DNA of 64,000 nt from Collinsella ihumii (GTDB lineage Bacteria; Actinomycetota; Coriobacteriia; Coriobacteriales; Coriobacteriaceae): assembly GCF_900046475.1 (NCBI RefSeq), contig NZ_FCOU01000003.1, forward strand, positions 407,713 through 471,712. Direction: 5' to 3'. A program made the position numbers and the translations under genes. The notes under the pieces are model-generated. The model saw nothing but the letters and a program-made list of their open reading frames with translations. It did not search any database and was not told where the DNA came from. Positions 12,815 through 18,775 of the stretch are shown piece by piece; within the stretch, counting starts at the first letter, position 1, and every line of letters begins with the position of its first letter.

Positions 12815-12830
12815 AATGAGGGAGGCACAC

Positions 12831-13979
12831 ATGAAGGATTTCCGATTTGGGATTCCGCAAAATATCGTCTTCGGCACCGGCAGCCTGCAACGCTTGCCCG
12901 AGCTGGTCAAGGAACTCGGATCGAAGCATGCGTTCTTGATTTCGGACCGCGGACTTGAGAAGATCGGCACAGTCGGGCACGTTTCGGACATCCTCGAAGA
13001 TGCCGGCATCACGGTCTCCTCCTATCTCGACGTGCTGCCCAATCCGACCGTCGAGATCGTGGACGCCGCAACCGAGGCGTATAAGGCAAGCGGCGCCGCG
13101 TGCTTGGTCGCTCTCGGCGGCGGTAGCCCCATGGATGTTGCCAAGGCCGTCGGCGTGCTCGTGCGCTTTGGGGGCAGCATCACCTCCTACGAGGGCACCG
13201 GCAAGGTTCCCGGCGATATCGAACCGCTCATCGCCATTCCCACCACGGCGGGCACTGGCTCTGAGGTCACCCCGTTCTCCGTCATCACCGACGAGGCCCG
13301 CAACCACAAGCTGTCCGTATACAGCGCGAAAATTCTGCCCGCATTCGCCCTGCTCGACCCCGAGCTCATCATGACCGCCCCAGCGGGCGTCGCCGCCGCC
13401 TGCGGCATCGATGCCATGATTCATGCCTGGGAGGCCTATACATCGCTCGACGCAAACCCGTTCACCGACGCGATGGCAGAGAAGGCCCTGGGGCTCATCG
13501 GTGCCAACATCCGCCGTTTCGTGGCCAACCGCGCCGACATCGAGGCCGCTGAGGCCATGATGGTGGGCTCCACGTTCGCCGGCATCGCCTTCGGTTTCGC
13601 CCGCTGCGGCGATGTGCACGCCATGAGCCATCCGGTAAGCGCCTTTTTCCACGTCGCGCACGGCATGGCGAACGCCATCCTGCTTCCCACGATCGTCGAG
13701 TACAACGCGCTCGCCGACCACGGCCGCTACGAGCGCATCTTCAACTACATCCGCGAGGATCGACATCCCGTCATCGACTTCCGCCCGCAAATGCTCGCCG
13801 ATGAGGTTCGTCACCTGCTCAAGCAGCTGGACATCCCGGCGACGCTTTCTGAGGTCGGCGTGACGGAAGACAAGATCGAGGCCATGGCCGCCGATGCCAT
13901 GACGAGCGGCAACATCGCCGTCAATCCCCGACAGACCACCATCAAGGATGTCATCGCACTCTACCGCAAAGCCCTGTAG
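12831..13979 (+). CDS. Iron-containing alcohol dehydrogenase (class III/IV)
   Basis: The 382-residue enzyme opens KDFRFGIPQNIVFGTGSL and carries the nucleotide-binding GGGSPMDVAKAVG and the metal-binding region with DAMIHAWEAY, DVHAMSHPV and VAHGMANAILLP. It would interconvert an aldehyde and a primary alcohol with NAD(P)H. It converges on the GRE operon and has two copies of the island operator in its promoter, so it is likely the branch that re-oxidises NADH by reducing the aldehyde made in this pathway. The ATG at 12831 follows GGAGG; an ATG 15 bp upstream has no ribosome site. Close relatives include lactaldehyde and butanol dehydrogenases. Confidence 0.9.
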   Translation: MKDFRFGIPQNIVFGTGSLQRLPELVKELGSKHAFLISDRGLEKIGTVGHVSDILEDAGITVSSYLDVLPNPTVEIVDAATEAYKASGAACLVALGGGSPMDVAKAVGVLVRFGGSITSYEGTGKVPGDIEPLIAIPTTAGTGSEVTPFSVITDEARNHKLSVYSAKILPAFALLDPELIMTAPAGVAAACGIDAMIHAWEAYTSLDANPFTDAMAEKALGLIGANIRRFVANRADIEAAEAMMVGSTFAGIAFGFARCGDVHAMSHPVSAFFHVAHGMANAILLPTIVEYNALADHGRYERIFNYIREDRHPVIDFRPQMLADEVRHLLKQLDIPATLSEVGVTEDKIEAMAADAMTSGNIAVNPRQTTIKDVIALYRKAL

Positions 13980-15061: not shown

Positions 15062-16033
15062 CTAATCCCAATGGATGTTCTCGCCGCCAACGGTGACGCG
15101 AACCTGGGGCGCCAGGCGCTCGCAGGCCTCCACGATCAGCCCGATGCGCTCATCGGTCTTCTTCATCATATCGAGGCCCGTGACCTCGCACTCCTCACCG
15201 ATCATGGTGTATTTGAGCTCGCCGAGGTTGTGGTAGGGCAGGATGTTCAGATCGGGCTTTCCGGGCAGCTGCGCCATGAAACGGGCGATGGCCTCCGCGT
15301 TGGATTCATCGTCGGTGTACCCGGGGATCACCGGATGGCGCACGATGACGCGGCGCCCGCGCTGCTCCATATAGGCGCACAGGCACTCGATGTTCTCCAA
15401 GATGAGCTCATTGGGTGCGCCAGTAACCTCGCGATGGCGGGCGGAATCCATATGCTTCAGGTCGACGAACGCTGTGTCGCAGTATGCGGCAAGCGCCTCA
15501 AGGTGCTCCCAAGGGCCGAACGCGGAGGTCTCGATGCAGGTGTCGATATAGTCGCGCTTGCACAGGCGCAAGACCTCGGCGGCAACCTCCCACTGCATGA
15601 GGACCTCGCCTCCGGACAGGGTGATACCGCTGCGTCCGCGGCGCGTGAAGGTGAGATCGCGGCGCACCTGCTCGTACAAACCCTGGGCATCATAGCGCTC
15701 GCCGGCGATCTTTCGGCAGCTGGCGGGACATATGGCGACGCACAGCCCGCAGGCGCTGCAGCGCTCCCAATCCATCTCGACCCTGCCGTCCTCGCCGATC
15801 GAGTTCACCTGCTGTTTGCATACGCGCACGCACGCGCCGCAACCCACGCAACGCTCGCGGTTCACGGCGAGCTGCGGGGCGACCGAAAGCCCCCAGGGGT
15901 TCGAGCACCATTTGCAGCGCAACGGACAACCCTTGAAAAAAATCATGGTGCGGATACCCGCTCCGTCCGTGTTGCGAAAATGCCCGAAATCGAACACGGT
16001 CGCTTCTCGCCCCGAGACGTTGCCCTCTGCCAT
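15062..16033 (-). CDS. Glycyl radical enzyme activase (radical SAM, 8Fe ferredoxin insert)
   Basis: The 323-residue protein has the radical SAM triad C36-x3-C40-x2-C43 (CPLRCKWC) followed by a ferredoxin insert with two clusters, C62/C65/C68/C72 and C92/C95/C98/C102. This is the architecture of activases for non-PFL glycyl radical enzymes. LSGGEVLMQ and DLKHMDS are further family motifs. It would cleave S-adenosylmethionine to abstract H from the partner's glycine. It lies directly downstream of the separate radical-domain gene, with a strong hairpin between them. AGGAGG six bases before the ATG at 16033 fixes the start. Confidence 0.93.
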   Translation of the reverse strand: MAEGNVSGREATVFDFGHFRNTDGAGIRTMIFFKGCPLRCKWCSNPWGLSVAPQLAVNRERCVGCGACVRVCKQQVNSIGEDGRVEMDWERCSACGLCVAICPASCRKIAGERYDAQGLYEQVRRDLTFTRRGRSGITLSGGEVLMQWEVAAEVLRLCKRDYIDTCIETSAFGPWEHLEALAAYCDTAFVDLKHMDSARHREVTGAPNELILENIECLCAYMEQRGRRVIVRHPVIPGYTDDESNAEAIARFMAQLPGKPDLNILPYHNLGELKYTMIGEECEVTGLDMMKKTDERIGLIVEACERLAPQVRVTVGGENIHWD

Positions 16034-16090
16034 CGAAAACCTCCTTGCACCGAATGCCGGCGCCCCACGAAAGCCCGCCCGCAGCATGCA

Positions 16091-16180: not shown

Positions 16181-16477
16181 TTAGAACGTATGCTCCGTAC
16201 GGTTGATGATGTCGTCCTGCACGCGCTCGGCGATGTCGGTCCAGTAGACACTGTATCCGGCGACACGAACGAGCAGGGTCGGATAGTTCTCGGGGTGCGC
16301 CTTGGCGTCGATAAGCGTTCCCTTATCGATGGTGTTGAACTGGACGTGATACACGCCGTAATCGTTCAGCATGGTGCGCACCAGGTTGACGAAGTTATTC
16401 ATGCCCGCTTCCTTGTAGGTGGGCATCTGATAGGTGGCCTCGGGCAAATCGAGACCGGTCTCGCGAATAGTCTGCAT
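16181..16477 (-). CDS. Separate glycyl radical domain subunit of a split GRE
   Basis: The 98-residue protein is nothing but the carboxy-terminal domain of a glycyl radical enzyme: GVYHVQFNTIDKGTLIDA followed by LLVRVAGYSVYW, with the radical glycine at G74, and VQDDIINRTEH at the end. In ordinary GREs this domain ends the large polypeptide. Here the upstream gene stops with UAG, a second in-frame UGA follows, and this frame restarts at an ATG nine bases after AAGGGAG. The two gene products together (757 + 98) match a normal GRE length. It resembles YfiD/GrcA only in being a free radical domain; the sequence is of dehydratase/decarboxylase type. Confidence 0.93.
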   Translation of the reverse strand: MQTIRETGLDLPEATYQMPTYKEAGMNNFVNLVRTMLNDYGVYHVQFNTIDKGTLIDAKAHPENYPTLLVRVAGYSVYWTDIAERVQDDIINRTEHTF

Positions 16478-16501
16478 AACACATCACTCCCTTGCTGGAC
16501 T

Positions 16502-18775
16502 CTAGACTTCCATCATTTCAGACTGGCTGATCCACATGTTCAGCAGCGTGCCGTTGCTGTACTTCGTATAGTCCAGCTTGCCGTAACTGCGAGCAGCTGC
16601 CAGCGGGCCGTGGGTGTCGGCCTGCTGAGAGGCCGACATGGTATCGGAAATGGGGGCGCCGGCAAGACGGCCGTTGGGGGTGGCGCCGGTCATCGCGCCG
16701 TAGCCCACGTTGGACTGGACCATCTGGATGGCCGCATCGCAGTAGTTGCCGCGGTACATCTTGAGCTTGTTGGTCGTGTCGCCGAAGAACGACCAGACGC
16801 GGCAGGCCACGTCGTCGGCGTAATCGTCGTCGTTGCCGAACTTGGGGGCAGCCATCAGCAGGGCACGGGTATCCTCGTAGCCCACGAAGTTGGCCTCGAT
16901 GGCGTTGGCCACGCAGCGCAGCGGCACAGCCTTGTCGTCGTAGACGACCTTCTTGATGGCGACCATGGAGTCGACGGCGGTCGCGAAGCCCACCATCTGC
17001 ATGGTCGGGCCGATGTTGACCTTGGCGCCACCTGCGGTCGCGTCCACACCGCGCTCAAGCGCCCCGTCGAGCAGCATCGTGAAGGTGGGCAGGTTGAACT
17101 GTTCGGCCAGAAGCTTCTCGACGATGATCAGGTTGGAGTGGGCCTCCTTGATCGCATACTCGATCTGGGCGAGGCACGCCTGCTCGAACTTCTCGTAGGT
17201 ATCGAGCGTCTCGGGCTCGCCAGAGGGGAACGTCACGATCTTGCCGCAGTGGGTGCCGTCCACGCCCTTGGCCTTCTTGCCGTTGGTGACGGCAGCGTAG
17301 ATGCAGCCCGCGACGTTGATGATGCCGGAGTCGGTATGGCCATACTGCATGCCCTCCACGCCGGGCTCGACGCAGCCGATCGGGCTGCCGTACTTCATGA
17401 TGTCCTGCAGCGAGTAGTTGGAGCGACCGGCGCCCGCGCCACGGGTGGCGAGCATCTTGTAGAGCGTCTCGACATCGAAGAAGCTTGGATGGCCCATGCC
17501 GTCGGCGGCGAGCTCGCAGGCCTCGCGCAGCAGCGAATCGGGGGTCTTCTGGTGCAGCAGCAGCGAGACGGCCGGCGACGTGGTGCGAGAATAGCGCATG
17601 GCGCGCAGGCACAGGTAGGAGAGCTCATTGGAGGCGTCGCGGCCGTTGGCGTCTAGACCTCCCACGTCCAGATGCGGATAGCGGTAGTAGCCGCCGAAGA
17701 TGTAGGCCATCTGGGTGGACTGGAACCACACGTTGGAGGTGACCTTGATGTACATCTCCTCGATCAGCTCGAGCGCCTTCTCCGGGGTGAGCGTGCCCGC
17801 CTCGATGTCGGCCTTGTAGTAAGGGTACATGTACTGGTCGAAGCGACCCCAGGTGATGGACGGACCGGCACCCTCGACGAACAAGAAGAAGCAGACGGCC
17901 CATGCGGTCTCCATGGCATCATGGAAGTTGGTGGCGGGACCCCACGGCACGCGCTTCATCATCGCGGCCATCTCCTCGAGTTCCTTCTTGCGCACGGGAT
18001 CGGCCTCTTCTTTGGCCTTGAGCAGGCACGAGGCGCTCATGCGGTCGGCCCAGTCGTGGATGGCCTCGCAGACCTCGATGATGCCCTCGTAGAAGTACTT
18101 CTTCTCGATGGAGGCGGGATCGTTGGGGTCGAGCTCGGCCAGCAGCTTCTTGGCCTTCTCGTAATACTTCTGGAAACCGTTGGCGATGACGTCGGTCCAC
18201 GAGGGGATGAAGTGGCTGCCGTTGGCGCAGATGTAATTGGAGACATCGGACACACCGCCGAACTGCGCGCGGTCCCACTCCTCGGGAGTCACGTAGTGCT
18301 TCCACTGGGCCGCAGCCGTCTTATCCTTCCAGTACGGCAACAGGTCCTCTTCGAGTTCCTTGTAGTCCTCGTCGGTGACTTCGAACGGATCGTAGGTGCG
18401 GTCGCGCAGATTGGGCAGGTCGTCGACCAGCCAGTGCGCATGGAGCTCGATGGCGAAGTTCGCGCCGCGGATGCGCTTGGTGGGCCAGCCCACGAGCTGC
18501 TCGTAATCGTACACGGTGTCGGACAGGGTGCGGTAGACCTCAGCGCACGCCTTATAGCGGCGGTACAGCGCAGGGTAGCCCTCGGTCTCGCGATACACCT
18601 TGGTGAAGGCACGGGCGCGCGTGATGTCAAGGTTGGGACGGTTGGCGTGGAGCATGCCGTTGAGCTCCTGGGTGCGCTTGGTGGAGCCCGTCTTGGCGAC
18701 GGTGCCGGCGCGCAGCTCGTTACCGAGCTTGGCGCCTCCCTCGACGACCTTGACCTCGATGGTTTCCTCGGCCAT
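16502..18775 (-). CDS. Glycyl radical enzyme catalytic subunit lacking its glycyl domain
   Basis: The 757-residue protein is a PflD-type GRE barrel. The N-terminal half has RGANFAIELHAHWLVDD, YDPFEVTDEDYKELEE and LLPYWKDKT, blocks shared with diol, choline and hydroxyproline GREs. The thiyl residue is C468 in GSPIGCVEPG, with E470 as the CxE general base of dehydratase/lyase-type members. It ends at NGTLLNMWISQSEMMEV, exactly where the glycyl domain should begin, and that domain is the next gene. AGGAGG precedes the ATG at 18775. The substrate is unknown: residues after CVEP (GVEGMQYGHTDSGI) do not match a characterised clade I can recall. Neighbouring aldehyde enzymes suggest an aldehyde product. 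Confidence 0.92.
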   Translation of the reverse strand: MAEETIEVKVVEGGAKLGNELRAGTVAKTGSTKRTQELNGMLHANRPNLDITRARAFTKVYRETEGYPALYRRYKACAEVYRTLSDTVYDYEQLVGWPTKRIRGANFAIELHAHWLVDDLPNLRDRTYDPFEVTDEDYKELEEDLLPYWKDKTAAAQWKHYVTPEEWDRAQFGGVSDVSNYICANGSHFIPSWTDVIANGFQKYYEKAKKLLAELDPNDPASIEKKYFYEGIIEVCEAIHDWADRMSASCLLKAKEEADPVRKKELEEMAAMMKRVPWGPATNFHDAMETAWAVCFFLFVEGAGPSITWGRFDQYMYPYYKADIEAGTLTPEKALELIEEMYIKVTSNVWFQSTQMAYIFGGYYRYPHLDVGGLDANGRDASNELSYLCLRAMRYSRTTSPAVSLLLHQKTPDSLLREACELAADGMGHPSFFDVETLYKMLATRGAGAGRSNYSLQDIMKYGSPIGCVEPGVEGMQYGHTDSGIINVAGCIYAAVTNGKKAKGVDGTHCGKIVTFPSGEPETLDTYEKFEQACLAQIEYAIKEAHSNLIIVEKLLAEQFNLPTFTMLLDGALERGVDATAGGAKVNIGPTMQMVGFATAVDSMVAIKKVVYDDKAVPLRCVANAIEANFVGYEDTRALLMAAPKFGNDDDYADDVACRVWSFFGDTTNKLKMYRGNYCDAAIQMVQSNVGYGAMTGATPNGRLAGAPISDTMSASQQADTHGPLAAARSYGKLDYTKYSNGTLLNMWISQSEMMEV

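Follow-up and report, generated by a model that had tools for sequence, protein, structure and literature searches.

A glycyl radical enzyme (GRE) encoded in Collinsella ihumii is very probably an obligate two-subunit enzyme, in which a 757-aa chain carries the catalytic barrel and the thiyl cysteine and a separate 98-aa protein carries the radical glycine, a reading that we draw from the sequences of the locus and of its relatives. The textbook GRE is a single chain, destroyed when oxygen cleaves it at its radical glycine. The two genes lie in a 64,000-nucleotide stretch of DNA that was analysed as a whole (the window), together with the following features:

12816 to 13976, plus strand: iron-containing alcohol dehydrogenase, the probable aldehyde reductase of the pathway; conserved (66–76%) only in the related loci L060, L063 and L066
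14246 to 15058, minus strand: QueG/reductive-dehalogenase-like 4Fe-4S protein, directly 3′ of the activase gene; no counterpart found in the related loci
15065 to 16087 (to 15062 including the stop), minus strand: radical-SAM GRE activase with two 4Fe-4S ferredoxin motifs (TIGR02494)
16184 to 16477 (ORF including the stop, 16477 to 16181), minus strand: predicted GRE small subunit, 98 aa (PF01228), with Gly74 in RVAGYS
16478 to 16501, minus strand: 24-nt intergenic spacer with the ribosome-binding site AAGGGAG and an in-frame TGA
16502 to 16504, minus strand: TAG stop codon of the large gene
16505 to 18775 (ORF including the stop, 18775 to 16502), minus strand: predicted GRE large subunit, 757 aa (PF02901), a catalytic chain of the 10-stranded-barrel type with Cys468 and Glu470 and without a glycyl loop
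18892 to 19491, minus strand: DUF1097-like membrane protein, a possible transporter; conserved (59–76%) in L060, L063, L064 and L136
19812 to 20300, minus strand: DUF3237/UPF0311 protein; conserved (68–93%) in L060, L063, L064 and L136
20403 to 22304, minus strand: FMN/FAD NADH:flavin oxidoreductase (BaiCD/bilirubin-reductase type); conserved (71–80%) in L060 and L063
22346 to 22852, minus strand: nitroreductase-family protein; conserved in L060 (85%)

The large chain, which ends at NGTLLNMWISQSEMMEV, contains the thiyl motif GCVEP that places its cysteine at position 468, and the 98-aa frame contains Gly74 in RVAGYS; both assignments had been made in an earlier note on this DNA and are borne out by the ORFs. 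The same is true of its observations that the two frames share a phase and are separated by two stop codons (reading through both would give 864 residues, of which 758 falls on the TAG and 764 on the TGA) and that AAGGGAG stands nine bases before the second ATG, where the sequence AAGGGAG-TGATGTGTT-ATG provides the small gene with a ribosome-binding site. The large chain matches the Pfam PFL-like profile (PF02901) with an E value of 2.6e-160, far beyond chance, and the Pfam Gly_radical profile (PF01228) is itself divided between the two proteins, with positions 2–45 matching the C-terminal part of the large protein (E = 3.4e-4, falling slightly short of the curated cut-off) and positions 48–105 matching the small protein (E = 4.3e-18). 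Alignment with GREs indicated that the invariant residues of these enzymes are all kept in both halves, including G467, C468 and E470, GNDDD and GATPNGR. The thiyl loop (G467-C468-x-E470) is thus found on the large chain and the glycyl loop (RVxGY) on the separate one, and the barrel and glycyl loop that define a GRE polypeptide are encoded by two genes in 12 of the 12 loci that could be read. The third gene of the core encodes the cognate radical-SAM activase expected of a GRE (280.5 bits against TIGR02494, whose cut-off is 174.35). The large chain also has an insertion of ~10 residues immediately ahead of the thiyl loop that is absent from the fused GREs compared.

Judging from comparative sequence data, the two-gene arrangement is a stably maintained form of the enzyme rather than a damaged gene, since every close relative that we found, in two phyla, keeps two genes. 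A scan of 84,980 species genomes returned six with orthologs at 76–88% identity (a Lachnospiraceae MAG, a Clostridiales MAG, Clostridium viride DSM 6836, two Atopobiaceae MAGs, and a Coriobacteriaceae-titled MAG), and a search of the family of C. viride returned five more, one of them with a tandem duplicate. Twelve loci have a readable 3′ end, the window and 11 others at 71–86% identity from Actinomycetota and Bacillota, and all 12 have the two-gene layout, including that of the isolate C. viride; they come from Coriobacteriaceae/Atopobiaceae-type genomes, Oscillospiraceae-type genomes and one Lachnospiraceae MAG. In every readable locus the large gene is closed by a stop codon and followed by a separate small gene of 97–98 aa, and the spacers of the orthologs (16–60 nt) differ in length and sequence and each contain their own G-rich ribosome-binding site. 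Moreover, of the 10 other loci that were measured, 8 have the small and large genes out of frame with each other. Together with the activase gene, these two genes form an invariant three-gene core in all loci with enough sequence. The small-subunit orthologs are 82–87% identical, and over the pairs with computable dS (several pairs being saturated) dN is 0.015–0.14 against a dS of 0.7–2.2 for the small gene, and 0.04–0.10 against 1.1–2.2 for the large gene, whose dN/dS is well under 0.1, values indicating that both genes are under strong purifying selection.

Uninterrupted homologues in close relatives had been set beforehand as what would refute the two-subunit reading; we looked for them and found none. 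No fused relative above 34% identity turned up in 396 phylum genomes, in 67 from the host's family, or in the 140, 350 and 299 genomes searched in the relatives' families. Viral contigs scanned with the GRE alignment and with the window small protein contained no relatives, and no close homologs (>60% identity) were found on plasmids or in phage records. The earlier note's proposal of an obligate two-subunit GRE is therefore supported, as all orthologs whose end can be read are split, in two phyla and mostly in different frames. The window GRE is carried by only 1 of the 67 genomes of the host's family, and the loci closest to it, found in another family and in a Bacillota MAG, have an identical gene order; the cluster has accordingly moved between phyla.

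The expectation that large and small proteins co-occur as adjacent, separate genes held in the family sampled. Among 350 genomes of the family of C. viride, the large gene and the orthologous small gene occur in the same six, as seven pairs that are all adjacent, and no orphan small ortholog is present; the next best matches to the small protein in these genomes are at most 53% identical and almost all lie within fused frames of ~800 residues. Stand-alone glycyl frames in three Oscillospiraceae genomes (G697, G668 and G639) were, on inspection, fragments of fused GREs, either broken or cut off at a contig edge, and a motif scan of L141, L143, L144 and L145 found no such frame. The split pair is the sole PF01228 content of two ortholog-bearing draft genomes (G623 and G624), and in another genome (G626) the single other PF01228 match covers columns 78–103 in a separate ORF. 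A spare part needs a complete enzyme, and since none was found in G623 or G624, drafts in which a fused GRE may hide on missing contigs, the small protein would not be a spare part there. The window's own genome does contain a complete GRE, a trans-4-hydroxyproline dehydratase with a glycyl domain that shares 54% identity with the small protein, and so the small protein may have an additional repair role in that genome.

A model of the small subunit built with 14 sequences (mean pLDDT 73) comprises a helix, a second helix, a beta hairpin (69–72/75–78) around a turn at Gly74, and a last helix. Residues 21–98 of this model superpose on solved GRE C-terminal domains (Z about 8, rmsd about 2 Å, 75–76 residues), suggesting that the split falls immediately ahead of the helix preceding the glycyl domain; the YfiD structure matches the model only from residue 40 (Z 8.0 over 58 residues). 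Ahead of this domain the small subunit has a conserved N-terminal extension of ~22 residues (TIRETGL..PEATY..PTYKEAG) that is found in no fused GRE and probably holds the small subunit to the barrel. An AlphaFold prediction for the read-through pair, made from 12 close sequences of little diversity, had a mean pLDDT of 50.9 and a pTM of 0.42, values too low for the model to be informative.

In the mechanism that we propose, the 757-aa chain would supply the barrel, the substrate site and the thiyl Cys468, and the 98-aa protein the Gly74 radical. The large, small and activase genes are co-transcribed and give separate polypeptides, as the sequences show through separate ribosome-binding sites and, in most orthologs, different frames. 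By analogy with GRE biology and YfiD, the activase would then abstract a hydrogen from Gly74 while the small subunit is free or flexibly bound, and the small subunit would dock, as homology predicts, at the site on the barrel usually occupied by the covalent C-terminal domain and pass the radical to Cys468, the resulting thiyl radical attacking the substrate. Were oxygen to cleave at the glycyl residue, the cell would presumably discard the 98-aa subunit only. Comparative genomics strongly supports the need for both subunits; that the small one is exchanged after oxygen damage is for now a good hypothesis.

A second split GRE, a pyruvate formate-lyase (PFL), is encoded in the window's genome (L011:3994-6456; contig C3:528993-531455). 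Its large chain of 725 aa lacks the glycyl loop and scores 1086 bits against TIGR01255 (cut-off 994), its small gene (83 aa) has its own AGGAGG, and a PFL activase is encoded nearby. PFL of the split kind was detected in 64 of the 67 family genomes at E < 1e-100, the copy in G019 being more distant (61% identical), and 51 of 54 classifiable PFL loci are split with an adjacent small gene; the remaining three are fused and belong to a more distant PFL type from other families. Split PFL thus occurs in most of the host's family, and also in part of a neighbouring family. Each of ten good genomes, several of them single-contig, has the split PFL pair, and in eight of the ten the glycyl-domain proteins otherwise number just one, with an NrdD-sized frame (~750 aa); in the window's genome, inspection of the sequence of this match identifies it as an anaerobic ribonucleotide reductase. 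The split PFL is the sole PFL of most genomes in the host's family, which shows that having the glycyl domain on its own chain does not stop a GRE from working. The small chain of this PFL matches NCBIfam GrcA3 (NF038360; 165.6 bits over 158) and is named accordingly as an 'autonomous glycyl radical cofactor GrcA3', but the genes around it favour reading it as a subunit. The earlier note had described separate glycyl domains only as spare parts, an incomplete account that overlooks the split PFL of the same genome. In a tree of 30 large chains, built quickly, with long branches and hence used only to establish two separate positions, two separate fused/split changes are needed (starred branches, in the window-GRE clade and the PFL clade), and the split design therefore appears to have arisen at least twice.

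It could be argued that the window holds a one-chain GRE interrupted by a recent nonsense mutation or an assembly error, or expressed by programmed read-through, as its two ORFs share a phase and are separated by two in-frame stops. However, the identical two-gene layout recurs at 11 other loci from unrelated assemblies, the small genes have their own ribosome-binding sites and a conserved N-terminal extension absent from fused GREs, both parts are under purifying selection, and the out-of-frame orthologs (8 of the 10 others measured) already refute it. Because the spacers differ, each with its own ribosome-binding site, and the frames mostly differ, we regard read-through, sequencing error and recent mutation as excluded, with a residual probability close to nil. 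Somewhat less far-fetched, though still very improbable, is that the small protein serves, in the manner of YfiD/GrcA, to repair some complete GRE encoded elsewhere, the large gene being an unrelated or dead GRE. The complete hydroxyproline dehydratase of the window's genome, the resemblance of the small protein to GrcA3 (70.7 bits, under the cut-off of 158) and its structural likeness to YfiD (Z 8.0 over 58 residues) all point this way, yet the large chain is conserved (dN/dS well under 0.1) despite having no glycyl loop of its own, the small gene always adjoins the large one and never occurs alone, two ortholog-bearing genomes encode no other PF01228 protein, and the small protein spans the whole C-terminal domain (21–98), beyond the YfiD-like part.

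We give more weight, while still thinking it rather unlikely, to a two-subunit GRE that is split mainly for regulation, dosage or radical storage, with a single pool of activated small subunits for several large chains, and not for oxygen repair. Two tandem large and small pairs precede a single activase gene in one Oscillospiraceae genome, and the window's genome encodes two different split GREs, as this explanation might lead one to expect. A shared pool of small subunits is argued against by the fact that the small subunits of the genome's two split GREs are only 40% identical and that each of the two adjoins its own activase. Extending the preferred reading, that of an obligate two-subunit enzyme, we tentatively suggest, at somewhat less than even chances, that GREs have at least twice become obligate heteromers with a cheap, replaceable radical subunit, among them PFL as the central fermentation enzyme of an entire family, and that the free glycyl subunits of rumen phages, 67–76% identical to the small PFL chain, could fit straight into that PFL.

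With regard to substrate, the window enzyme passes no NCBIfam equivalog cut-off. It was rejected as a choline TMA-lyase CutC (TIGR04394, 480 bits against a cut-off of 1050, with changed choline-contact positions), as a trans-4-hydroxy-L-proline dehydratase (NF043068, 336.6 bits against 1100) and as a (2S)-3-sulfopropanediol dehydratase HpsG/HpfG (NF048011/NF048009, 428.2 and 358 bits against 1000). Tyr208, Asp216 and Tyr506 of CutC correspond to Asn, His and Ile in the window enzyme, and Asp482 stands twelve residues after Glu470; the His at the Asp216 position and Asp482 resemble diol/glycerol dehydratase sites. The core is accompanied in the window, L060 and L063 by the iron alcohol dehydrogenase, the DUF1097-like protein, DUF3237 and the BaiCD-like flavoenzyme, and in Oscillospiraceae by a LysR regulator and a metallo-beta-lactamase-fold hydrolase. 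Given the diol-dehydratase-like His and Asp482, and the iron alcohol dehydrogenase that adjoins the core in the Coriobacteriia-type cluster, our best guess, a weak one, is that the reaction is of the eliminating dehydratase type and gives an aldehyde. No pathway was indicated by the neighbouring families or by the DUF3237 literature.

The closest solved relatives by sequence (about 33% identity) are in the branch of CutC and the diol/glycerol dehydratases, which share the barrel fold and the GCVEP, GND and GATP-GR motifs with the window enzyme but lack its second polypeptide for the glycyl domain and its ~10-aa insertion before the thiyl loop. Benzylsuccinate synthase and 4-hydroxyphenylacetate decarboxylase, like the window GRE, combine a catalytic chain with small partner subunits, but they keep the glycyl domain on the large chain and have iron-sulfur proteins as small subunits. 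Consistent with this, alignment of the 4pkc and 2y8n chains places the glycyl part within the large chain. The GrcA3 PFL system shares with the window GRE a truncated large chain, an adjacent small glycyl gene and a nearby activase, but belongs to the PFL family, represents an independent split and has no window-like N-terminal extension. YfiD/GrcA and a T4-type phage relative are free glycyl domains that receive their radical from a radical-SAM enzyme and take their place in a GRE barrel (PMC8683613). Whereas YfiD rescues a complete PFL after oxygen cleavage, the window-type small protein has its partner gene next to it, includes the preceding helix that YfiD does not, and has no complete same-family partner chain in the draft genomes G623 and G624; it also scores under the NCBIfam GrcA, GrcA2 and GrcA3 cut-offs (42, 61.6 and 70.7 bits against 170, 145 and 158). 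Only YfiD and Y06I are validated spare parts, those for other GREs being speculation (PMC8683613). The split class II ribonucleotide reductase NrdJab is likewise a radical enzyme made as two polypeptides (PMC4520616), although it is a cobalamin enzyme without a glycyl radical and so an analogy only. We found no description of two-component, split or bipartite GREs in the literature covered, which included few subscription papers and no bioRxiv preprints. A radical domain that is always separate would allow activation, docking and exchange to be tested directly, without cutting a protein, and the split PFL suggests that some proteins annotated as 'autonomous glycyl radical cofactor' are essential subunits, which would change the annotation of those genomes.

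We note several further arrangements of these genes. The tandem duplication of the large and small pair of the window-type GRE, with its single activase, is at L136:8058-16097 in the Oscillospiraceae genome G760. Among split PFLs (L030-L073, L113-L124 and L128), many large chains have a new tail in place of the helix of fused PFL, often with closely spaced cysteines (CDACN, CDCC, CADC, CGDCGCR). One genome (G561; L127 and L128) has both a fused and a split PFL. Phage contigs from IMG/VR (L099-L111), several of them longer than 100 kb, carry free glycyl-domain ORFs that are 67–76% identical to the small subunit of split PFL, and the locus L112 encodes a complete fused PFL-like chain.
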